64,000 nucleotides of DNA. It comes from Candidatus Loosdrechtia aerotolerans. Lineage in GTDB: Bacteria > Planctomycetota > Brocadiia > Brocadiales > Brocadiaceae. The DNA lies in assembly GCA_021646405.1 (NCBI GenBank), contig SOER01000007.1, positions 1-64,000 on the forward strand. Reading direction: 5' to 3'. How positions within the stretch are numbered: the first letter of the stretch is position 1; each line of letters begins with the position of its first letter. The notes below the pieces were generated by a model. That model was not told the origin of the DNA, made no database searches, and worked only from the letters and a program-made list of their open reading frames with translations. Positions 50,946 to 64,000 of this stretch are shown here, piece by piece. Both the position numbers and the translations under genes were made by a program.

Positions 50946-52292
50946 ATGACAAAACCAAGGTTATTACTCGTAGACGATGATAAAAGCGCACTTGATGGAT
51001 TAATAAAGATATTAACCCTTGATGGGTACCCTGTTTCTGGTGTTTTATCAGGTTATGAGGCATTAAATCTTTTATCAAAGAAAAATTTCGATATTGTTGT
51101 AACGGATATGAAGCTGCCGGGATTGGGGGGGATACCCCTGATTCATGAGATCAAGAAAAAGGATGAATCGATAGCGATTGTGGTTATTACTGCATACAGT
51201 TCGGTTAAAACTGCTGTAGATGCTATAAAATGTGGAGCAGATAATTATCTGACAAAACCAATACATATCGAAGAGTTGACGTTGATATTAGAGAAGTTAT
51301 GGGAGAAACAACAGCTCATTGAGCAGAACAGGCTCTTAAAAGAGAAGTTAAAGAATAAGTACAGGTTTTCCGAACTTGTTGGCGGTACGCCTCAAATGCA
51401 GCAGATATTTAAGATGATTGAGGACGTGGCACCAAGTACTGCATCAATTCTTATCCTGGGTGAGACAGGGACGGGAAAAGAGCTTGTGGCGAATGCAATA
51501 CACTACCAGAGTGAAAGAGCAGGGATGCCTTTTATTGCATTACACTGTGCTGCCTTGTCGGAAGGCGTACTGGAAAGCGAACTCTTTGGTCACGAGAAAG
51601 GGGCGTTTACCGGTGCCGTTCAATCAAGAAAGGGTCGATTTGAATTGGCGGATGGTGGTACTCTGTTTTTAGACGAAGTAGGTGAAATGAGCCTGAAGGT
51701 TCAGGTTAAACTGCTGCGGGTGCTTGAGAAAGGCGAGTTTGAGCGTGTTGGCAGCGAAAAGACAATAAAGGTGGATGTACGGTTTGTTGCAGCAACCAAC
51801 CGGGATCTTGAAAAAGAAGTCCTGGAGGGAAGGTTTCGGGAAGACTTATATTATCGATTGAATGTTATTACCGTGCACCTGCCACCGTTAAGAGAGAGAA
51901 AAGAAGATACTCCCCTTCTTGCGAATTTTTTTTTGATGAAATATACAAAAAAATATAAGAAGGAAATTCACGGTTTTACTCCTGCTGCAGTGAAGGCGCT
52001 TTGTTCACATCAATGGCCAGGTAACGTAAGGGAATTAGAGAATATTGTTGAGAGGGCAATTGTCCTTTGTAAAGGTAATATGATTACCGAGAAACATCTG
52101 CCCGGTAGTATTATTCAAGGTACAGAAGATATACCGGTAGTTAAGATTCCTATCGGCACTTCGTTAAAAGAAGCAGAAAAGGAAATTATTCAAAAAACAC
52201 TCCAGATAACCCATGGCAGTAAAAGTGACGCCGCAAAGATACTGGGGATCTCCTCGAGAAAGATTGAGTATAAACTAAAGGAATGGGGGTAG
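50946..52292 (+). CDS. Sigma-54-dependent response regulator (NtrC family)
   Basis: 448 residues. Receiver domain (1-120) with [14 protein letters not shown], acceptor Asp in [13 protein letters not shown] and [13 protein letters not shown]+ domain with Walker A GETGTGKE, sigma-54 loop [15 protein letters not shown], Walker [11 protein letters not shown]-terminal Fis-type helix-turn-helix [21 protein letters not shown]. Paired with the PAS kinase upstream. Its receiver domain is copied as a separate gene at 53723-54136. It differs from the 31758 regulator in sensor partner and detail. Confidence 0.94.
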
Positions 52293-52598
52293 AAACGAAA
52301 TTTTTTCGCCCTTTTTCTTCAACATACCGGTAATTTCCGCAAATTTTTCGATAAAATGCTTTCTCATACCCCCCTTCTTTTTCTATTCTTCCCTTGTGAC
52401 AAAAATATAAATTTTTATAAGTACTGTATTTCTACTTGTTTATGTTGTGTGGTATCATGATTGGTTACTTGTGGTATGTTAATTGTTTATACAATAAGCG
52501 ACTCTAATAATGGGTTAACCTTGCAAGGGAAAGCGATTGTAAAAACAGAGTATGGAACAGGTATAATTTCTAACTTTTTAAAAGAGGAGTACCAATCG
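52293..52598. other. Intergenic region before the protoglobin gene
   Basis: No gene is supported; the in-frame extension of the protoglobin frame back to 52461 lacks a ribosome binding site and family similarity. The stretch is AT-rich, with small T-runs and a short CGAAATTTTTTCG stem near 52297-52309. Confidence 0.4.
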
Positions 52599-53255
52599 AT
52601 GAATTCAGCTATGGCAAATGCTTATATGAAAACGTTTCCAATGGAGGCAGAGAAGAAGGTTTCTGCTGGCAAACGAAATCCTGTTTTGGATATTCCCGAA
52701 TTTAATAACACATGGAATATTTACAGAGAAACCAGTCTTGATATTATGAAGCGTTATGAATATATGGCCCAGTGTGTGGATTTTACGGATAAAGATACGG
52801 AGGCCATCAGGGAGTCTAAGGACATTTTGGCACCTCATCTTGAGGCAATCCTTGATCATATTTATTGGGAAAAGCTTATTAATGATCCCTGGTTGTCGAA
52901 ATGGTTCAGAGACGAGACAGGAAAAATTTCTAAAGAATATGTTACTATCAGGAGGGCGAGACAGCGAAGATTTATTTTAAAGATCCTCGAGTGTAAATGG
53001 GATGAGGAGTTCTGGAATTTCGTCCGTTGGGTTGGTGCCGTACATGTGCCGATATTTGGTTTTGAAGATCTTTATATACCGGTAAGGCTGAATCTGGCTC
53101 TTTGGGGGTATATCCATCAATATTTGTTTAACTTCCTTGCAGAACAACTGAAAGATGATCCTGAAAAGCTTCGCAGGATTACCTCTGCCTGGACAAAACT
53201 TTTCTGGTTGATTATTGATGTCTATCATATCGATTATTTTGCTCCCTGGATGTAA
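52599..53255 (+). CDS. Protoglobin-domain protein
   Basis: 218 residues from ATG 52599, chosen because AGAGGAG lies 9 bases upstream. The sequence is one protoglobin domain (Pfam Protoglobin): RYEYMAQCVDFTDKDTEAIR, an aromatic-rich core, FRDETGKISKEYVTIRRARQ, and the proximal heme His149 in VGAVHVPIFGFEDLYIPVRL. Protoglobins bind O2, CO and NO; some act as sensors when joined to kinases or cyclases, but here the domain stands alone. It lies between the PAS kinase/regulator pair and a small ferredoxin, upstream of the cytochrome block. A gas-sensing or NO-handling role is inferred. Confidence 0.9.
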   Translation: MNSAMANAYMKTFPMEAEKKVSAGKRNPVLDIPEFNNTWNIYRETSLDIMKRYEYMAQCVDFTDKDTEAIRESKDILAPHLEAILDHIYWEKLINDPWLSKWFRDETGKISKEYVTIRRARQRRFILKILECKWDEEFWNFVRWVGAVHVPIFGFEDLYIPVRLNLALWGYIHQYLFNFLAEQLKDDPEKLRRITSAWTKLFWLIIDVYHIDYFAPWM

Positions 53256-53722: not shown

Positions 53723-54136
53723 ATGATAAAACCACGGGTATTACTGGTAGATGATGATAAAAATACACTGAATGGACTCGTAAAGTTATTAACACATGAC
53801 GGATATCCCGTCTACGGTGTTCTATCAGGGTACGAAGCGTTAAGCCTTTTCTCTAAAAAACGGTTTAATATCGTTATAACGGACTTGAAGTTACCAGGGT
53901 TGGGAGGTATGTCTTTAATTCAAGAAATAAAAAAAAGGAATATCTATGTGGCAATTGTGGTTATTACAGCCTATAGTTCTGTGAAAACAGCCATAGAAGC
54001 TATACAATGTGGAGCAGATGAATACTTAACAAAACCGATAGACATTAAAGAGTTGGAATCGGTAATCGAAAGGTTGTGGAAAAGACAACGGTTAGTTTCG
54101 CAAAATCAGCTTTTAAAAGAAGGGTCAAAAGAATAA
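53723..54136 (+). CDS. Stand-alone response regulator receiver
   Basis: 137 residues, one CheY-like receiver with VLLVDDDKNTLNGL, acceptor Asp in IVITDLKLPGLGG and LTKPIDIKEL, ending in a helix (ERLWKRQRLVSQNQLLKEG). It is collinear with the receiver of the 50946 regulator, about two-thirds to three-quarters identical by eye, and stops where that protein enters its AAA+ domain. So it is a partial duplication that lost the output domains. It could compete for phosphate from the PAS kinase. Confidence 0.88.
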   Translation: MIKPRVLLVDDDKNTLNGLVKLLTHDGYPVYGVLSGYEALSLFSKKRFNIVITDLKLPGLGGMSLIQEIKKRNIYVAIVVITAYSSVKTAIEAIQCGADEYLTKPIDIKELESVIERLWKRQRLVSQNQLLKEGSKE

Positions 54137-54497: not shown

Positions 54498-55490
54498 ATG
54501 AGGCAATGTAAAACTGTTGGACCCGCTCTATTGTTTTTACTCACCTGCTTCTGTATAACGACATATGCAGATACAGCAATTTTAGCAAACAGTAAGCAAA
54601 GTATTGATCTTACCGTAATAGCTGTCGCCGATGAATATATAGAGGCAGTAATTTTAAAAAAAGATATAAGATCATTAAATATGCAGTTTTCTGACACTCT
54701 TGGCTACCCGGATGTGATGTTTCTCAAGGTTCCGGAGGTGGTTATCGAGTGCAAAGTTAAAGATATTTCTGAAGATTGCATACAAGTCTTTATTCCCGCC
54801 TCGTTAATCTCTTCTCTTAAAACCCCTTCTTTTTCTGATGATAAACGGGTTGATGCAGCTTTGGATGAAACAGAAAAAGAGCCAGAAACAACGATAGATG
54901 ATGAACGTGATGAAGACAAAAGACAGGAGCAATTGACATTAAAACAAGAATCAGAAATCAATATTTCCCGCATACATGAAGAATTTAGGAAAGGGGCAAT
55001 TGTTGATCAAATTCGGACTGTTCCTCCAGAAAATGCAAATACGGAAAAACAATATAGATTAAAGATCATAAGGATAAAAGAAGCGAGAAATAGCTTAGAA
55101 AAAGTGGTAGAATTAAATGAAGAAGATGTACAAAAAGAGAATACCGCTTTCCCAAATGATATTCGACTTGGTAGTATTGAAGGAAAAATACTACAGAATG
55201 GAACTCCCCTTGTAGATTGTCAGGTGAAATTGCAATTGCTGGAAAAGGTTGGCCTTATATCAAAAGGTTATCGCCCGGTAGAAGGAGCTGTAGCGTTTGA
55301 GGCTGCTACTGATCAGAACGGAATCTATTGTTTTATGGATATGCCCACGGGTTTATATAAGATATACTGGAGGCCGTCTTCGGAAAGCGAGTGGATTAGC
55401 CGTTTCAAAATGGAACCGGATGTTACGGTAAAACCAGGCAGATTAACAAACTCAAAAACTATCGAGACGTTAAAGAGAACGCTAAACTAA
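54498..55490 (+). CDS. Secreted protein with C-terminal carboxypeptidase-regulatory-like domain
   Basis: 330 residues. A signal peptide (about 1-25, PALLFLLTCFCITTYADT) directs export. The middle (100-215) is highly charged and mostly helical, with few hydrophobics. The C-terminus (about 225-320) looks like a transthyretin-like/CarboxypepD_reg domain: LGSIEGKILQNGTPLVDCQV, DQNGIYCFMDMPTGLYKIYW. No catalytic residues. It may bind a periplasmic partner. It is upstream of the cytochrome block on the same strand, separated by 513 bases that contain a promoter, so probably a separate unit. Confidence 0.6.
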   Translation: MRQCKTVGPALLFLLTCFCITTYADTAILANSKQSIDLTVIAVADEYIEAVILKKDIRSLNMQFSDTLGYPDVMFLKVPEVVIECKVKDISEDCIQVFIPASLISSLKTPSFSDDKRVDAALDETEKEPETTIDDERDEDKRQEQLTLKQESEINISRIHEEFRKGAIVDQIRTVPPENANTEKQYRLKIIRIKEARNSLEKVVELNEEDVQKENTAFPNDIRLGSIEGKILQNGTPLVDCQVKLQLLEKVGLISKGYRPVEGAVAFEAATDQNGIYCFMDMPTGLYKIYWRPSSESEWISRFKMEPDVTVKPGRLTNSKTIETLKRTLN

Positions 55491-56003: not shown

Positions 56004-56762
56004 ATGATGGCGAAAAGTTTGCGGTTGATGCTCATCGGTGGTATGGCAATTAGCGTTTTGTGCGGTGTATCGGGGTTAAGCCATACAACAATGGCTGCAG
56101 GTAAAAAAACACCATATAAAGAGATTGAAGTGAGTGATGGTGGTACGATTACCGGAAGCGTAACATTTGATGGTGATGTTCCAGAGGTAAAAATACTGAG
56201 GATTGATAAAGATGAGCAGACATGTGGTCATGATAATAAGCAGTCAGAGCAATTGGTAATTAATGAGGGGTCTAAAGGCATCCAGTATGCAGTTGTTTCT
56301 CTCGTTGATATTCCTGCTGGCAAGAAGGCTGAGGCGACAGCGGCTGTGCTGGATCAGAAGGAATGTGTATTTGTACCTCATGTACTTGCAGTATCAGCGG
56401 GAAGCAGTGTCGATCTGTTAAATAGTGACGATGTAATGCATAATCTGCATTCCTGGTCTATCAGAAATCCAGCTTTCAATGAAGGTGTGTCCGGTGGTGG
56501 AAAATTAACAAAGAAATTTGATATTCCGGAGATCGTAAAGATAACGTGTGATGTACACAAGTGGATGAGTGCTTTTATTAAAGTGGAACCAAACCCGTAC
56601 TTTGCGGTTACCGATGAGAATGGTCGTTTTAAGATCGAAAATGTACCGGCAGGCTCTTATAAGATTGCAGCATGGCAGGAAAAGCTTGGGAAGAAAAAAA
56701 GTGAGGTTGTTGTGAAACCGAATGAAGAGACTGTGGTAGATTTTGTCTATGAAAAGAAATAA
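56004..56762 (+). CDS. Periplasmic cupredoxin-like protein with regulatory-like domain
   Basis: 252 residues. A signal peptide (about 1-32, ending TTMAAG) is followed by a beta-rich region GGTITGSVTFDGDVPEV, then a cupredoxin-like part with possible copper ligands His146/His149 (DDVMHNLHSW), Cys182, His185 and Met188 (TCDVHKWM). The C-terminus is a carboxypeptidase-regulatory-like fold (DENGRFKIENVPAGSYKIAAW). Related proteins have been annotated as methylamine-utilisation-like or plastocyanin-domain proteins. It is the first gene of the block, 52 bases before the bd-like subunit, so a role in electron transfer is likely but the redox partner is unknown. Confidence 0.75.
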   Translation: MMAKSLRLMLIGGMAISVLCGVSGLSHTTMAAGKKTPYKEIEVSDGGTITGSVTFDGDVPEVKILRIDKDEQTCGHDNKQSEQLVINEGSKGIQYAVVSLVDIPAGKKAEATAAVLDQKECVFVPHVLAVSAGSSVDLLNSDDVMHNLHSWSIRNPAFNEGVSGGGKLTKKFDIPEIVKITCDVHKWMSAFIKVEPNPYFAVTDENGRFKIENVPAGSYKIAAWQEKLGKKKSEVVVKPNEETVVDFVYEKK

Positions 56763-56814: not shown

Positions 56815-58971
56815 TTGATAATGAATAAATCTAAGATATTACTACGGTTAACAAAAAGAAATATTGTTGTTGCACTTGTGCTTATCATATCAATCTGTGC
56901 ATCTTTTTCACTTACGCATAAGGCATTTGCAACTGAAGTGGAATCGGGTGTGGAATTGCCACAGTTTGATACCGACCAGCCATCAGATACTTCACAAGCA
57001 TCGGAAGGATCGCAAGCGGAAGATGCCGGAGCTTTGGCTGCCGCAGAGGAGGAAGAGTTAGAACCTGTTCAATACAGATCATTTTTTGGACTTGATTCTC
57101 GTGTTGTGGTCTGGATCGTTTCTGAATTGCATCTCATGTTTGCTGCTTTTGTGCTTGGTGTTCCGATTTTTGCGGTGATCGTTGAGATTGTTGGCTTTAA
57201 AGGCGGAGATATCAAGTATGATAAAATGGCAAAAGAGTTTACTAAGCTTTTGTCTGCAGCGTTTGCTACAACTGCATCGCTCGGTGGTTTGCTTGCGTTC
57301 TGTCTGTTTGGGCTTTATCCTGAATTTATGAGCCATATGACAAATGTCTTTGCACCAACCATGTACGTATATGCCTTAATGTTCTTTGGTGAGGCATTTA
57401 CACTCTATGCGTATTACTACTCCTGGGATATACTGAAGGGTTCTGCTAGTAAGAAATGGTTTCATATCTCACTTGGTGTGTTACTTAACCTCTTTGGTAC
57501 CGCACTTATGTTCACCACAAACTCATGGGCAACATATATGATGAGCCCTTCTGGCATTGTACCAACCACAGGCAGGGTTTTAAGCCTGTATGATGCTTTT
57601 TACAATTTACTTTGGATGCCTGTAAATATTCACAGGTTAATTGCAAATGTGTGTTTTGGTGGTTTTATTGTAGGGGCATATGCAGCGGTAAAATTTTTAG
57701 GTTCGAGGACGGAAGAAGAAAGGGCTCACTACGATTGGATGGGTTATGTTGGTAATTTTATCGGAATAGGTGCTTTGATTCCTTTACCGTTTGCAGGGTA
57801 CTGGCTGGGGCGCGAGGTGTATAGTGCGAGCCCAGTAATGGGGAATATTATGATGGGCGGTGCCTTCTCATGGACATTTATCATTCAGGCTATTCTGATC
57901 GGTATGCTTTTCATTGGTGCGAATTATTATTTGTGGCTCGGGATGGGGAGGATCAAGGGTTCTGAGAGGTATACAAAATTTATCAAGTATCTTGTTTTTA
58001 TAATCTTCGCATGTTTTGCTGTTTGGTTAACCCCTCATAATTTGCCATTAAGTGGTGAAGAGAGGGCAATGATTGGCGAGCAGTACCATCCGTTCTCCAA
58101 ATATTTTGGAGTAATGGCAGCAAAGAATGCCGTTGTGAATATGATTATTTTAGCAACCTTCTTTTCATTCTTGATCTATCGCCGCAGCAATAAAGGCGAG
58201 ACGGTGCCATTTGCAGAGCAGGGGAAGGCTGGTAAGGTTGGTATATTTTCAGCATTGATATTTTGCTTGCTGATGTTAGTTTCATATGCGGTATCGCTTA
58301 ACTTTGTCGATATAGATGCCAATATGAAGCCCTTTGTGAAGCCTTTGATATTTTCGCTCTACATTCAGACATTTGCAGTATGTGTTACCACCTTTTTAAC
58401 TTTTAAGGATAAAGGTAAACTGGCTCAAATGCTATTATTTGCGGTAACAGCAAGTATCGCGGTGTTGTATTTTTGGTACTATGGATTCCAGGTTATGGAG
58501 AAGGCAAATCTGGTATTGCGATATCTGTCTGTAACACAGGTTTCCATCGTAATGAGCTGTTTAATTATGAACGCTGTGATAGATGTCTTTATGTTTCGTA
58601 AAGCAAAGGTGGTTGGAGGTATTGTATGGGGCAAGATGCCTGTGAGGTCCCAATATGCGTTGATTCTCTTATGTGTTGTTATTGTTATTCTCATGGGCCT
58701 TATGGGCTTTATACGCTCCGGTTTACGCATGGATTGGCATATCTATGGTGTATTGCAGGATACATCTCAGTGGGCATATACTCCAACGCTATCGTTTATG
58801 GGGCGTATAGTCGGTGTCATTGTTGCTCTCTTCCTTGGTCTGGTTGCCTTCGTATTTTGGCTGGCAAATTTAGGTGAAAGAAAAGCGAAGGAAAAGGTTG
58901 CTGAGTATGGATATGAGACTGAGACAGAGCCGAAAGGTGTGTTAGCGGCAGGGTGTAAGGATGTTCGCTGA
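56815..58971 (+). CDS. Cytochrome bd-like subunit I (CydA-like), enlarged form
   Basis: 718 residues; classical CydA is about 470-520. An N-terminal hydrophobic segment (19-40) ends in KAFATEV and leads into an acidic Ser/Glu-rich linker up to about 85. The CydA core then starts: His106 in SELHLMFAAFVLG (cf. heme-ligand His19 of E. coli), Glu193 in FFGEAFTLYAYYY, SWATYMMSPSG, His273 in VNIHRLIANVCFGG (cf. His186), and WLTPHNLP. The C-terminal 200 residues add further membrane segments and RSGLRMDWHIYGVL. No CydB follows; c-type cytochrome genes do. Quinol or c-type heme as electron donor cannot be decided. Confidence 0.85.
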   Translation: MIMNKSKILLRLTKRNIVVALVLIISICASFSLTHKAFATEVESGVELPQFDTDQPSDTSQASEGSQAEDAGALAAAEEEELEPVQYRSFFGLDSRVVVWIVSELHLMFAAFVLGVPIFAVIVEIVGFKGGDIKYDKMAKEFTKLLSAAFATTASLGGLLAFCLFGLYPEFMSHMTNVFAPTMYVYALMFFGEAFTLYAYYYSWDILKGSASKKWFHISLGVLLNLFGTALMFTTNSWATYMMSPSGIVPTTGRVLSLYDAFYNLLWMPVNIHRLIANVCFGGFIVGAYAAVKFLGSRTEEERAHYDWMGYVGNFIGIGALIPLPFAGYWLGREVYSASPVMGNIMMGGAFSWTFIIQAILIGMLFIGANYYLWLGMGRIKGSERYTKFIKYLVFIIFACFAVWLTPHNLPLSGEERAMIGEQYHPFSKYFGVMAAKNAVVNMIILATFFSFLIYRRSNKGETVPFAEQGKAGKVGIFSALIFCLLMLVSYAVSLNFVDIDANMKPFVKPLIFSLYIQTFAVCVTTFLTFKDKGKLAQMLLFAVTASIAVLYFWYYGFQVMEKANLVLRYLSVTQVSIVMSCLIMNAVIDVFMFRKAKVVGGIVWGKMPVRSQYALILLCVVIVILMGLMGFIRSGLRMDWHIYGVLQDTSQWAYTPTLSFMGRIVGVIVALFLGLVAFVFWLANLGERKAKEKVAEYGYETETEPKGVLAAGCKDVR

Positions 58972-59082: not shown

Positions 59083-60033
59083 ATGAATAAAAGCATGTTA
59101 AAAATTACGGCTTTTGGAGTTGCGGTTATAGGATTCTATATCTATATCACGATGTATGTTGCTGATCTTTCTGGGTCAGGCGGAGGCGGTCCTGTCACAG
59201 GTGTTAGCCCAGAAGCCGGTGAGGAGATATTCTGGGGTGATGGGCAATGCAGCACTTGTCATAAAGTAGGCTCGTCCGGAAGTGCTACGAGAGGTCCCGA
59301 CCAAGAGGGCCTGGCGATCCGTGCAGATGAACGTGCGAAGGAGTTAGGTTTACCGTCGGGCCTTGATTATCTTGTAGAATCAATTGTTGAACCTGACAAA
59401 TATATCGTGAAAGGGTATGATAAAATCATGCCTAAGGTCTATGATCCGCCCATTGTGTTATCCCGTGAAAAGATTTTGGCAGTGATTGCATACCTCCAAA
59501 CGTTGGGTGGAGAGCCGGATATCGATGCAATCATGAAGTTTAAAGATAAGATACCTGAAGCCTCGAAAAAGAAGGTAAAGCCATGGGTTCCGCCAATCGT
59601 GGTTGACGCAAAAGAAGGAGAGAAGATATTTTTTGATGAATCACGGTCTGTTACCTGTGGTAAATGCCATGTCGTAAACGGAAGAGGTAACAAGGTAGGT
59701 CCGGAACTTACCGGTATTGGTGCAATCCAAACACCTGAATACTTTATAGAATCAATCCTGGAACCAAGTGCAAAGATTGTAACAGGGTATGAAACTATGT
59801 ATGTGATAACGGTGGACGGTATTCCATACAATGGGTTAATTAAGAGTGATACAGAAGAAGAACTGGTATTGCTGGCGGAGGAAAGTGGTGAAATCGAAGA
59901 AGTTGTTATTCCAAAGGATGAGATTGAGGTGATGAAGAAACAAGAGGTGTCGATTATGCCGGGCAATATTCGTGAGCTTCTCAGTGTCCAGGATTTTTAT
60001 GGGATTATATCCTTTTTGCAAAGTCTAAAATAA
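59083..60033 (+). CDS. Membrane-anchored diheme cytochrome c with TIGR02603-type domain
   Basis: 316 residues. One N-terminal membrane anchor (about 7-27), then heme sites C56-S-T-C59-H60 and C192-G-K-C195-H196. The second half (GPELTGIGAIQTPEYFIESI, LEPSAKIVTGYETMYVITVDG, EVSIMPGNIRELLS) matches the planctomycete-type putative heme-binding domain TIGR02603. The protein faces the periplasm (or the equivalent compartment) and should carry electrons to or from the bd-like subunit 111 bases upstream. It lies on the same strand as the rest of the block. Confidence 0.9.
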   Translation: MNKSMLKITAFGVAVIGFYIYITMYVADLSGSGGGGPVTGVSPEAGEEIFWGDGQCSTCHKVGSSGSATRGPDQEGLAIRADERAKELGLPSGLDYLVESIVEPDKYIVKGYDKIMPKVYDPPIVLSREKILAVIAYLQTLGGEPDIDAIMKFKDKIPEASKKKVKPWVPPIVVDAKEGEKIFFDESRSVTCGKCHVVNGRGNKVGPELTGIGAIQTPEYFIESILEPSAKIVTGYETMYVITVDGIPYNGLIKSDTEEELVLLAEESGEIEEVVIPKDEIEVMKKQEVSIMPGNIRELLSVQDFYGIISFLQSLK

Positions 60034-60080: not shown

Positions 60081-60851
60081 ATGGTTAATAAACGTCGTAC
60101 ATATTTGATGATATGGGTTATTTTTGCGGTAATTTGTCTATTCTTGTTTCTCAAATATGCTTCGCCTAAAGTGTTTCAGATATTGATGGCAAAGGGTCAC
60201 CCTATGCCTACACCAAGCACACTAATGATGTGGTATATGATCATGGGGGTGCTGGCAGGCCTTGTTTATGCTACAACCAGTAACCAGAAATTTGTTGATT
60301 TTTTGAGTTTCCTGTTACCTGATCGTGGTCCTGTGATTAAATCTTTACTTCAAAAGGTGCTGTTTGTATCTTTCCCTGTGCTTGTCGGCTGGTTTGTATA
60401 TTCGTGGTCGCTTCCCGGTGCTGCTTCACCTGTTGAATTAAGAATTCAGCATCCAACACTACCACAAAACTACGAAAAACTTGAGAATCCGTTTCGCCAT
60501 GAAGATGCTGAAACCCAGAGGTTATGTATCGAGGAAGGAAAAATTCTTTTTCAGACGTATTGTCGTCCGTGCCATGGTTCAAAAGCAGATGGCAACGGTC
60601 CGTTTGCTAACGCATTTCGGTTAAGGCCGATCAACTTCCAGGACCCCGGTACCATTGCAACGGTAGTAGATAATTATCTCTTTTGGCGAATTAAAGAAGG
60701 TGCTCCTGGTCTTCCTTCCGAATCAACGCCGTGGGATTCTGCTATGCCTTCATGGAAAGATGATTTAAAGGATGATGAGATCTGGAAGATTATCATGGGT
60801 GAGTATGATACCGCCGGGGTAATGCCAAGACAAAGAGAGAAACTCGAATAG
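60081..60851 (+). CDS. Membrane-bound monoheme cytochrome c
   Basis: 256 residues. Three hydrophobic segments (about 9-28, 47-64 and 92-112) anchor a C-terminal cytochrome c domain with C161-R-P-C164-H165 in YCRPCHGSKADGNGPFANAF and a likely Met ligand in DSAMPSWKDDL near the end. The region before the heme (QHPTLPQNYEKLENPFRHED) resembles the linker of anammox and Nitrospira respiratory cytochromes. It starts 47 bases after the diheme gene. Role in the same complex is inferred from context. Confidence 0.88.
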   Translation: MVNKRRTYLMIWVIFAVICLFLFLKYASPKVFQILMAKGHPMPTPSTLMMWYMIMGVLAGLVYATTSNQKFVDFLSFLLPDRGPVIKSLLQKVLFVSFPVLVGWFVYSWSLPGAASPVELRIQHPTLPQNYEKLENPFRHEDAETQRLCIEEGKILFQTYCRPCHGSKADGNGPFANAFRLRPINFQDPGTIATVVDNYLFWRIKEGAPGLPSESTPWDSAMPSWKDDLKDDEIWKIIMGEYDTAGVMPRQREKLE

Positions 60852-60931: not shown

Positions 60932-62527
60932 ATGATAAAAGCATTTAAAAAAGGACTGATTGGTTTTGGGTTGTTAGGTGTGTGCGCTGCTGGCATTTCT
61001 GGAATAGCTGCTGTTGAAGAGGCTCAGGCATCGCATTTATTTAGAACATATAAGCGTGAGACCCCACCAAAACCCCCTGAGACACCTGAAGCGATAGCCG
61101 AGGGAAAAAAGATTTATGAAAAGAGATGCTGGTATTGTCATGGAATTGAAGGTGGAGGCGATGGGCCCGCTGCCAGAACGATGTTTCCAAAACCAAGGAA
61201 TTTTACCCGGAATGAATATAAAGTCCGCTCTACTACTTTTGGATCAGTTCCTACAGATGAGGATCTATTCAGGATTATTACAAGCGGTATAGAGGGGACT
61301 GCCATGCCTTTCTGGTATACGATTAGTGAGAAGGAGCGATGGCAGGTTTTATATTATCTTAAGACATTTAACAATCAATTTAAAGAGAGCGGTGCTGCCA
61401 AGATGGTTTCTCTTGGCGGAGGTATTCCATCGAGCCCGGAAAGTATTCAAAGAGGCAAAGAGTTATTCAAAGAGACAAAATGCTTTGAATGTCATGGTGA
61501 AGACGGAAGGGGAAACGGTCCTTTAACCGTTGCTTTGCAGACAGAATGGGACATGCCATACCGGGCACGGGACTTAACGAAGAGTTGGCTCTTTAAAGGT
61601 GGTAATACAATAGAAGACATTTATCGCACCGTTTCTACCGGTTTTAATGAAACGCCAATGGGTTCATATTTAGAAAAGCTTTCTGATGAAGATCGCTGGC
61701 ATATTGCACATTATGTAAAAAGTATATCAAAGGATATGACATCAGATGTGGTAATAAAAGCAACGCTTTTAGAGACCGAAGAATTACCAACGGATACTTC
61801 CGATGAAAACTGGAGTAAGGCTGCCGTAATAGAGATTCCTCTGTCAGGACAAATTATTGCAAGCCCGAGGTTATGGACACCTTCTGTTGATGCTCTTAGA
61901 ATTAGGGCCCTTTATAATGAGGATGAAATAGCGTTTTTGTTAGAGTGGGATGATTCGACAAATAGACAGGAAGACGTTTTTCGTGATTCTGTTTCCGTTC
62001 AATTCCCCACGAAAATCCCTGATTCTCTGAAAAAACCGTATTTTGCAATGGGTGACTCGGGTGGTGCTGTAAATCTGTGGGTATGGAAGGCATATTGGGG
62101 TGAAGGGTTTGGCTCGGTGATTGAGGCCCCTGAGACAGAGCCGGGTGAAGCATACGAACTGAATGCAAAAAGTTTTAATAAAATTTCAAGACAACCGCCT
62201 GAAAGCCAGAATATAACGGGAACGGGTGTATATCAAAATGGAAGGTGGAGTGTTGTAATAAAAAGACCTTTAAAAACAGATGATGCTAAAAATGATATTC
62301 AGTTTGAAGTAGGAAGGTTAATACCGATTGCGTTTGCAGTATGGGACGGATCAAATAGTGATGTAGGTTCTCAAAAGTCTGTATCTTCATGGTATTATGT
62401 GAATCTGGAAAAACAGGTGCCAAAAACGATTTTTGCATATGTTTTGGTTGCAATTATCATGGGGGCAAGTGTTGAGCTGTGGTTTATAGCAAGACTGCGC
62501 AGATTCCCGCCCAAGGAAGAAGAGTAG
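60932..62527 (+). CDS. Diheme cytochrome c fused to ethylbenzene-dehydrogenase-like heme b domain
   Basis: 531 residues. A signal peptide (about 1-33, ending EEAQAS) precedes two cytochrome c domains with C66-W-Y-C69-H70 and C184-F-E-C187-H188, each with downstream Met motifs (TAMPFWY, TPMGSYL). From about 280 to 490 the sequence (LRIRALYNEDEIAFLLEWDD, FEVGRLIPIAFAVWDGSNS) resembles the heme-b-binding gamma subunit of ethylbenzene dehydrogenase and NXR-type enzymes. A C-terminal membrane segment (about 500-520) anchors it. So three hemes may be carried by one chain. It is co-directional, 80 bases after the monoheme gene. Confidence 0.85.
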   Translation: MIKAFKKGLIGFGLLGVCAAGISGIAAVEEAQASHLFRTYKRETPPKPPETPEAIAEGKKIYEKRCWYCHGIEGGGDGPAARTMFPKPRNFTRNEYKVRSTTFGSVPTDEDLFRIITSGIEGTAMPFWYTISEKERWQVLYYLKTFNNQFKESGAAKMVSLGGGIPSSPESIQRGKELFKETKCFECHGEDGRGNGPLTVALQTEWDMPYRARDLTKSWLFKGGNTIEDIYRTVSTGFNETPMGSYLEKLSDEDRWHIAHYVKSISKDMTSDVVIKATLLETEELPTDTSDENWSKAAVIEIPLSGQIIASPRLWTPSVDALRIRALYNEDEIAFLLEWDDSTNRQEDVFRDSVSVQFPTKIPDSLKKPYFAMGDSGGAVNLWVWKAYWGEGFGSVIEAPETEPGEAYELNAKSFNKISRQPPESQNITGTGVYQNGRWSVVIKRPLKTDDAKNDIQFEVGRLIPIAFAVWDGSNSDVGSQKSVSSWYYVNLEKQVPKTIFAYVLVAIIMGASVELWFIARLRRFPPKEEE

Positions 62528-62596: not shown

Positions 62597-64000
62597 ATGA
62601 AAGTGAAATCAATGGTCTGCTTACCTCGACTAAAGCTAACGATTTTAATTGCTGGCATGTTTTTCTCATTGATAGGATTTCTGAATGCTTCGTTTGGACA
62701 AGAGCGAAAGATCGATTCTCTGTTTTTGGAGTTAGATAAAAAATATCGGATTCCTGAAGAGTGGTCCATGCTGCCATATGAACTTGAAGATCCTTATAAA
62801 AGAGTAAAAAACGGGCCTCCTCTTACGAATGTTGTTAAAAAAGCAAACGTGGAGTGGATTTCTCGGTGGATTGCTAATCCTGCAAAAGTAGTACAAAATG
62901 CAAAAATGCCCAATTTAGGTTTAACGTTTGATGAGATTAAGGCAGTGATTGTTTATCTGAATAGTATATCGGATAAAGATGTTCCGCAGGTCTCCTGGGA
63001 CCCGTTTTTGTTAAAAAAGGAAGATGACCTCACCGATGATGAATATGATGAGATGGATGCTATCTATGCGAATGGTAAAGGAGTCTGGGGTCGTGCCCGC
63101 TGCACGATTTGTCATCCTGTGAAAGGTGTCGGCGGAAATGTAGGTGTCGGGCCGGATCTAGGTGAAATTACTCAAAAGGTAAACAGAGATTGGTTATATA
63201 ATTGGATTAAGAATCCTAAAGAACACTTTCCGGATACCATGATGTCTCAATTCCGTTTTTCAGATGGTGATATCCGGGGACTTGTTGAATTTATTATGCG
63301 TGATACACAGTTTATCCCTGAAGAAGTATATGATGATGAAGGCGAAGTTATTAAACCTGAAAATACAGGTATGCAGGTATTAACGAAACAGGAATTTAAC
63401 GGTATTATGAAAGATGCAGCACTTATTGAAAAGGGGAAGGATGTAATTGAAAAAGCACGTTGTTTCGTTTGTCATGACATAAAAGGTGTTGCGGAAATAA
63501 TGCCTGTAGTTGAATATAAACGCGATGGGCTTGAGGGGTTCGAAAAGCTTTTGTTTGAGATACGATGTTTAACCTGTCATACCATCCAGGAGAAAGGTGG
63601 CACGTATGCGCCAAACTTAACGTTTGTGGGGAGTAAAATTAATATGCCGTGGGAGCATGATTTTCTGCAGTCTCCCGATATTATCCGTCCTCTGAGCCAG
63701 CAGATGCCAAAATTTAATTTGACAACAGAAGACGCGACCGTAGCAACGGAATTTATGGACAAGCACCTTCTTCATAAAGAACCGTTACAGGATATCTTTA
63801 ATGGTGAGGTACCATCAGACGATATCGTTGCTGCCGGGGAAAAGCTTTTCTACGAAAAGGGATGCCATGCATGTCACGCTGAAGGGACAAAAGGTGGTGG
63901 TGTTGTTGGCCCTAACTTAGGAACAGTTGGTGATCGGTTACAAACGTCATATATGCAAAGACACTTAAAGAATCCGCAAGAGATGAACTCTCAAGCTGTT
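62597..64000 (+). CDS. Multiheme cytochrome c, at least four hemes, runs off the window
   Basis: 468 codons are open up to the window edge. The start at ATG 62597 is preceded by AAGGAG. A signal/anchor segment (about 14-34, LTILIAGMFFSLIGFLNASF) precedes heme sites C169-T-I-C-H, C289-F-V-C-H, C324-L-T-C-H and C423-H-A-C-H. Between 60 and 130 lies a further cytochrome-like fold without CxxCH (WISRWIANPAKVVQNAKMPN). The repeated LKNP/IKNPKEHFP motifs match c-type cytochromes that form arrays. It begins 69 bases after the previous gene. The C-terminus and further hemes are outside the window. Confidence 0.9.
   Translation, partial: MKVKSMVCLPRLKLTILIAGMFFSLIGFLNASFGQERKIDSLFLELDKKYRIPEEWSMLPYELEDPYKRVKNGPPLTNVVKKANVEWISRWIANPAKVVQNAKMPNLGLTFDEIKAVIVYLNSISDKDVPQVSWDPFLLKKEDDLTDDEYDEMDAIYANGKGVWGRARCTICHPVKGVGGNVGVGPDLGEITQKVNRDWLYNWIKNPKEHFPDTMMSQFRFSDGDIRGLVEFIMRDTQFIPEEVYDDEGEVIKPENTGMQVLTKQEFNGIMKDAALIEKGKDVIEKARCFVCHDIKGVAEIMPVVEYKRDGLEGFEKLLFEIRCLTCHTIQEKGGTYAPNLTFVGSKINMPWEHDFLQSPDIIRPLSQQMPKFNLTTEDATVATEFMDKHLLHKEPLQDIFNGEVPSDDIVAAGEKLFYEKGCHACHAEGTKGGGVVGPNLGTVGDRLQTSYMQRHLKNPQEMNSQAV

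Follow-up and report, generated by a model that had tools for sequence, protein, structure and literature searches.

A CydA-like subunit beside the nitrite oxidoreductase genes of an anammox bacterium: a probable partner of c-type cytochromes without CydB

Here, we analyze a cytochrome bd-like gene of Candidatus Loosdrechtia aerotolerans, contained in a contiguous stretch of 64,000 nucleotides (hereafter the window). Our findings favor a model, which we hold to be fairly probable, where the CydA-like product and partners of the kustd1709-1711 type constitute a c-type-cytochrome oxidoreductase serving nitrite oxidation rather than a CydAB-type quinol oxidase. Having lost both the Q-loop and its usual partner subunit, the CydA-like protein most likely trades electrons with c-type cytochromes. 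Both the gene and its cluster are already known, given the gene-for-gene match to kustd1699-1713 of Kuenenia and the published bd-like protein; the present work adds some new constraints.

The Gene and Its Neighborhood

The open reading frame (table 1) encodes 718 amino acids if translated from a TTG codon and 716 from an in-frame ATG at 56821, two codons further on, which is the likely start. Its product matches the Pfam family of cytochrome bd subunit I (PF01654) over residues 95-341 with E 2.1e-20, far beyond chance, in agreement with the CydA-like assignment of the first-pass annotation; this was the only family matched, and NrfD was not found. The surplus of about 200 residues over CydA that had been noted amounts to 196 relative to E. 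coli CydA (522 aa) and to some 270 relative to short CydAs, and the exported-looking N-terminus and acidic linker described at the same time are both visible in the sequence. The gene is single copy in the genome. As for CydB, whose absence had been remarked on, a PF02322 profile search of the whole genome, 99% complete, returned no match above the cut-off.

The four cytochrome c genes reported to follow are indeed present, with 2, 1, 2, and 4 CxxCH motifs, respectively, and a fifth, with one CxxCH, lies just beyond the window. The third encodes an alternative NxrC (alt-NxrC) that combines two c-type heme domains, a heme b domain of the ethylbenzene-dehydrogenase/DMSO-reductase type, and a C-terminal membrane helix. 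Past the window (locus L005), the fifth cytochrome gene shares its strand with genes for a universal stress protein, NxrC, NxrB, a TorD-like chaperone, and NxrA, with nxrC, nxrB, and nxrA located 2-10 kb past the window end. The genome also encodes hydrazine synthase alpha (HZS alpha), and is thus that of an anammox bacterium. An Rfam scan of the window gave no match. In the assembly, nxrA is broken outside the window by an exact 131-bp tandem repeat (L005:10953-11214; contig C59 ~72953-73214), whose length, not divisible by 3, shifts the frame; most likely, an assembly overlap was left unmerged.

On the upstream side, a cupredoxin-like gene precedes the CydA-like gene in 24/24 testable anammox loci, and its Kuenenia orthologue, kustd1713, has been named blue copper protein (PMC11897245). 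Still further upstream, the window holds a 330-aa exported-looking protein with an acidic center and no Pfam match (54498-55490); a lone 137-aa receiver domain (53723-54136), closely similar to the N-terminus of the full NtrC-type regulator at 50946-52292, which looks like a partial duplication; and a protoglobin (52461-53255; PF11563, E 2e-25) that, encoded near the nxr cluster and just downstream of genes for a PAS histidine kinase and an NtrC-type regulator, may be a gas sensor.

In Kuenenia, the nxr cluster lists kustd1712 as "similar to subunit 1 of alternative cytochrome bd quinol oxidase" (PMC6423088), and the bd-like protein and its cluster have been described in anammox bacteria, Nitrospina, and Nitrospira (PMC3578206, PMC6606698). 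The window gene is the positional orthologue of kustd1712, which bears out the kinship with bd-like proteins of nitrite oxidizers and anammox bacteria proposed in the first-pass annotation. The products of kustd1705-1712 were found in the membrane fraction (PMC11897245); kustd1712 was not detected in one proteome (PMC6423088). For the diheme cytochrome kustd1711, a crystal structure is available and the potential is ~+350 mV (PMC11791136), a value that would suit nitrite/nitrate.

Table 1. Features of the CydA-like locus (window coordinates) and natural fusions found in other genomes (locus coordinates)
Feature	Position	Strand	Basis
Exported blue-copper-type (cupredoxin-like) protein with C-terminal carboxypeptidase-regulatory-like domain, kustd1713 orthologue	56004..56762	+	Pfam CarboxypepD_reg; position
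CydA-like (cytochrome bd-like) membrane protein, type A, kustd1712 orthologue	56815..58971	+	PF01654, AlphaFold model
Signal-like N-terminal segment: positive n-region (Lys/Arg-rich), hydrophobic core, AFA end	56821..56934	+	read from sequence
Acidic linker after the signal-like segment	to ~57060	+	read from sequence
His106, equivalent to E. coli His19 (high-spin heme ligand)	57130..57132	+	MAFFT; 110/112 relatives
Tyr186 at the position of E. coli Glu99 (heme d ligand)	57370..57372	+	Tyr in 112/112
Glu193, equivalent to E. coli Glu107	57391..57393	+	112/112
His273, equivalent to E. coli His186 (heme b558 ligand)	57631..57633	+	112/112
Q-loop replacement: two-helix membrane hairpin and p-side loop with His408 and His425	57868..58113	+	model helices 273-300, 304-325
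Met434, probable equivalent of E. coli Met393 (heme b558 ligand)	58114..58116	+	Met in 112/112; structural range of 80-600 model
Four extra transmembrane helices between TM7 and TM8 equivalents	58222..58596	+	models; ~65 residues of them missing in A' paralogues
Motif S635-G-L-R638-M-D-W641-H642, equivalent to E. coli E445-Y-G-R448-Q-P-W451	58717..58740	+	motif alignment
Diheme cytochrome c, kustd1711 orthologue	59083..60033	+	2 CxxCH; Pfam Cytochrom_C
Membrane-anchored monoheme cytochrome c, kustd1710 orthologue	60081..60851	+	1 CxxCH; Cytochrome_CBB3
Alt-NxrC, kustd1709 orthologue	60932..62527	+	EB_dh E 2e-31, Cytochrom_C, TIGR03477
Tetraheme cytochrome c, kustd1708 orthologue	62597..64000 (runs beyond window; 497 aa)	+	4 CxxCH; complete in locus L005 597-2090
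A'-diheme cytochrome c fusions	L117:5187-7733, L118:5283-7814, L119:6088-8727, L120:4796-7324		

Heme-Ligand and Quinol-Site Residues

Residues were mapped to E. coli CydA with MAFFT and checked by a profile-profile alignment (hhalign, residues 98-309, 98.5%), which, having no alignment beyond residue 309, is silent on the C-terminal ligands; conservation was counted over 112 aligned relatives. The earlier placement of His106, Glu193, and His273 at CydA positions is upheld, with the two methods agreeing on their correspondence to E. coli His19, Glu107, and His186. In E. coli CydA, His19 is a heme ligand. Ligand roles have likewise been assigned to Glu99, Glu445, His186, and Met393 (PMC6853902). 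Besides the Tyr at the Glu99 position, Ser635 replaces the heme b595 ligand Glu445, as anchored by the R448-x-x-W451 motif, and this Ser is present in 112/112 relatives. The heme b558 pair, on the other hand, is kept in the form of His273 and, probably, Met434, with the register of Met434 to Met393 fixed to within about one helical turn (VIA alignment and a structural model cut at residue 600). Two other candidates for the Met393 position were discarded: Met561, the choice of MAFFT, and Gln575, suggested by a hand alignment and dropped once the same model had placed TM7. The alignment of that model with E. coli CydA reaches only model residue 381, so that the helix starting with Met434 corresponds to TM7 and Met561 is rejected; Met561 is, moreover, absent from the whole A' clade (see below). 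Conservation also extends to three further histidines that the model places on the p-side, His408, His425, and the nearly invariant His642. The quinol residues Lys252 and Glu257, together with the Q-loop, are absent from the CydA-like protein according to both the MAFFT alignment and the model, and no alternative quinone motif was found in it.

Predicted Fold

The AlphaFold model, built for residues 80-718 from a 64-sequence alignment (pTM 0.87), contains 15 long helices; the second model covers residues 80-600. In a fold search with the former, the ten solved CydA entries listed score Z 33-35 over 345-358 aligned residues, followed, as the next fold family, by the NrfD-type subunits of alternative complex III at Z 20-23; rows for pectin-methylesterase inhibitors and GPCRs were set aside as helix-bundle background. 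With the 80-600 model, the alignment extends no further than model residue 381, equivalent to E. coli 415-418, which makes helix 434-458 the counterpart of TM7, the four helices within 470-594 an insertion, and the last two helices TM8 and TM9. In the model, the mature N-terminus faces the p-side, a topology supported by the positive-inside count (14 Lys/Arg in 223 p-side positions vs 31 in 157 n-side positions). Overall, the prediction is of a CydA fold in which His273 and probably Met434 form a low-spin heme b site on the p-side and His106 provides one further heme ligand.

Distribution and Paralogy

The order was surveyed in 62 genomes, grouped into families f1 (Brocadiaceae, 33 genomes), f4 (Scalindua-type, 17), f3 (9), and f2. 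All 33 Brocadiaceae carry the CydA-like gene in one copy each, split into fragments in two assemblies, and normally adjoining nxr. In f4, it occurs in 16 of 17 genomes, some with several copies. None of the nine anammox-type f3 genomes has it, even though HZS alpha is found in 6/9 and a divergent NxrA-like protein (53-58% identity) in 7/9; thus, the module is not required for every NXR. CydB (PF02322) was matched in only 2/62 genomes of the order and in none of the 33 Brocadiaceae. Outside the order, relatives with 45-62% identity are found in Nitrospirota, Nitrospinota, Gemmatimonadota, Rokubacteria, Myxococcota, SAR324, KSB1, and many Proteobacteria, and searches of plasmids and phages yielded distant canonical CydA or nothing. 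This pattern bears on the notion that the gene is a CydA relic, degenerate or misassigned, that plays no part in redox chemistry, to which the short reach of the CydA profile (only ~250 residues) might point. Yet in most of the 33 Brocadiaceae the gene is intact, with 78-87% identity over nearly its entire length, the ligand residues are invariant across phyla, and the whole CydA fold is kept in the model. The conservation pattern refutes such a relic, and we grant it next to no likelihood.

Homologues of kustd1711, kustd1710, and kustd1709 (diheme, monoheme, and alt-NxrC) lie within 4.5 kb downstream in 59 of the 60 loci with enough flank, and the cassette cupredoxin/CydA-like/diheme/monoheme/alt-NxrC recurs in many phyla, usually without nxr. 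Among the non-anammox genomes with the cassette, an NxrA match (E < 1e-30) occurs in 9/32, and a heme-copper oxidase in 27/32. Nitrite is thus not the sole donor, and the cassette is a general electron-transfer unit that anammox bacteria employ beside nxr. The genomes surveyed are mostly metagenome assemblies, which makes single absences weak. In one Poribacteria MAG (L061:1-21908), NxrA, NxrB, and TorD adjoin the CydA-like cassette and no heme-copper oxidase was matched in the genome.

The relatives form two paralogous clades, A and A', and the window gene is of type A (tree of 98 rows, SH-aLRT 100, obtained by a quick method and with long branches). In many Proteobacteria, an A cassette is followed by an A' cassette. 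The 33 Brocadiaceae, by contrast, have type A only, with A' restricted to other families, and hence the CydAA' heterodimer, as proposed for Nitrospira and Nitrospina, is impossible there. In three genomes of f4 and one of f2, the C-terminus of A' continues, as a fusion, into a diheme cytochrome c that resembles the product of the gene at 59083 (table 1). These fusions are the strongest evidence here that a CydA-like subunit and this diheme cytochrome would act jointly.

The pairing of A with A' is also the setting for a different proposal, in which the protein would be a cytochrome c-fed reductase of O2 (or NO), as for OR-N CydAA', with electrons passing from the diheme cytochrome to a high-spin heme at His106 in the service of defense or respiration. 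OR-N proteins are treated as putative cytochrome c-oxidizing O2 reductases in Nitrospinota and Nitrospirales, and His106 and Glu193 are conserved; the heme-copper oxidases of the 27/32 non-anammox carriers, many of which have both A and A', indicate that oxic or micro-oxic life is common among them. Nevertheless, Glu99 is replaced by Tyr in every relative (112/112) and Glu445 by Ser, Brocadiaceae have no A' partner, and the whole kustd cluster, together with nxr, falls rather than rises when NO replaces nitrite (PMC6423088). In Scalindua, O2 reduction is ascribed to a cbb3 oxidase and flavodiiron proteins. With the acidic ligands lost, A' missing, and the cluster down-regulated with NO, reduction of O2 or NO becomes less likely, and we judge it improbable for the window gene. 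Elsewhere in the same genome, we noted a distant member of the heme-copper oxidase superfamily (G000:C11:214988-216133; 648 aa frame, weak PF00115 match) that could be an NO-reductase-like enzyme.

Functional Model

The first-pass annotation had envisaged electron exchange between quinone and c-type hemes. The c-type heme half of this claim gains support from the synteny with the diheme, monoheme, and alt-NxrC genes and from the natural fusions; the quinone half does not, as Lys252/Glu257 and the Q-loop are absent, although a new site is possible. For the c-type-cytochrome oxidoreductase that we favor, gene order and fusions suggest that the CydA-like, diheme, monoheme, and alt-NxrC proteins may assemble into one complex in the anammoxosome membrane. 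The diheme cytochrome would dock on the p-side, at the former Q-loop site, exchanging electrons with the low-spin heme b, whereas alt-NxrC would join the CydA-like unit to NXR; together, the p-side c-type hemes and alt-NxrC could form the path by which NXR and the heme(s) b of the CydA-like protein exchange high-potential electrons. Electrons from nitrite would enter the membrane here, to be driven uphill by reverse transport or passed to another acceptor.

Anammox bacteria need low-potential electrons for carbon fixation, and in an anaerobe the most attractive use would be reverse electron transport from nitrite. One specific variant of the favored model makes the protein a nitrite-fed quinone reductase that resembles alternative complex III and has acquired a new quinone site. 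Such a role was suggested for the bd-like protein (PMC3578206, PMC6606698), and it accords with the need for low-potential electrons as well as with the resemblance of the fold to NrfD-type subunits (Z 20-23). That resemblance is, however, far weaker than the one to CydA, and neither the canonical quinol determinants nor an alternative motif could be recognized; we therefore regard the quinone reductase as possible but doubtful. Equally tentative is the fuller form of our proposal, namely that the bd-superfamily subunit of Brocadiaceae, lacking CydB or a second CydA, would be the heme b core of a c-type-cytochrome complex moving nitrite-derived electrons into the membrane of an anaerobe. If true, the bd family would include an enzyme that neither oxidizes quinol nor reduces oxygen. 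The complex would stand at the junction between anammox nitrite oxidation (~+0.42 V) and the low-potential electrons for carbon fixation. The ligand map, the missing A', and the fusions of CydA-like and diheme proteins provide concrete, testable constraints: they make a quinol oxidase unlikely and point to a heme b protein linked to cytochrome c whose direct partner would be kustd1711.

Comparison with Known Systems

The closest counterpart is kustd1712 of Ca. Kuenenia stuttgartiensis, where the gene order is the same as here (1713, 1712, 1711, 1710, 1709, 1708, 1707, 1706, NxrC, NxrB, NxrA), and the copy of Ca. Kuenenia hertensis has 82% identity to the CydA-like protein. One difference is that the homologue of kustd1705 (NXR-T), part of the Kuenenia nxr cluster, is not seen here between the universal stress protein gene and nxrC; in other genera, NXR-T is located elsewhere (PMC8387239). 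The OR-N/bd-like proteins of Nitrospira and Nitrospina share with the window protein the N-terminal similarity to CydA, membrane helices in place of the Q-loop, and the lack of quinol residues, and their genes neighbor those of c-type cytochromes and alt-NxrC, as here. Bd-like proteins have been described as CydA-like in their N-terminal half, with ~14 helices, some of them replacing the Q-loop, and without the quinol residues (PMC3578206), as against the 15 helices modeled here. A CydAA' pair (OR-N1/OR-N2) has been hypothesized for the Nitrospira and Nitrospina proteins, whereas Brocadiaceae have one CydA-type gene only. With canonical CydA of CydAB, the protein shares the fold, His19, Glu107, His186, and probably Met393; it differs in having no Q-loop, Tyr for Glu99, Ser for Glu445, ~200 extra residues, and no CydB. 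Finally, the NrfD-type subunits of alternative complex III (6btm chain F, 8k9e chain C) have a similar helix-bundle fold and c-type heme partners, but at 8-9% identity, whereas the heme ligands conserved in the CydA-like protein are those of CydA.
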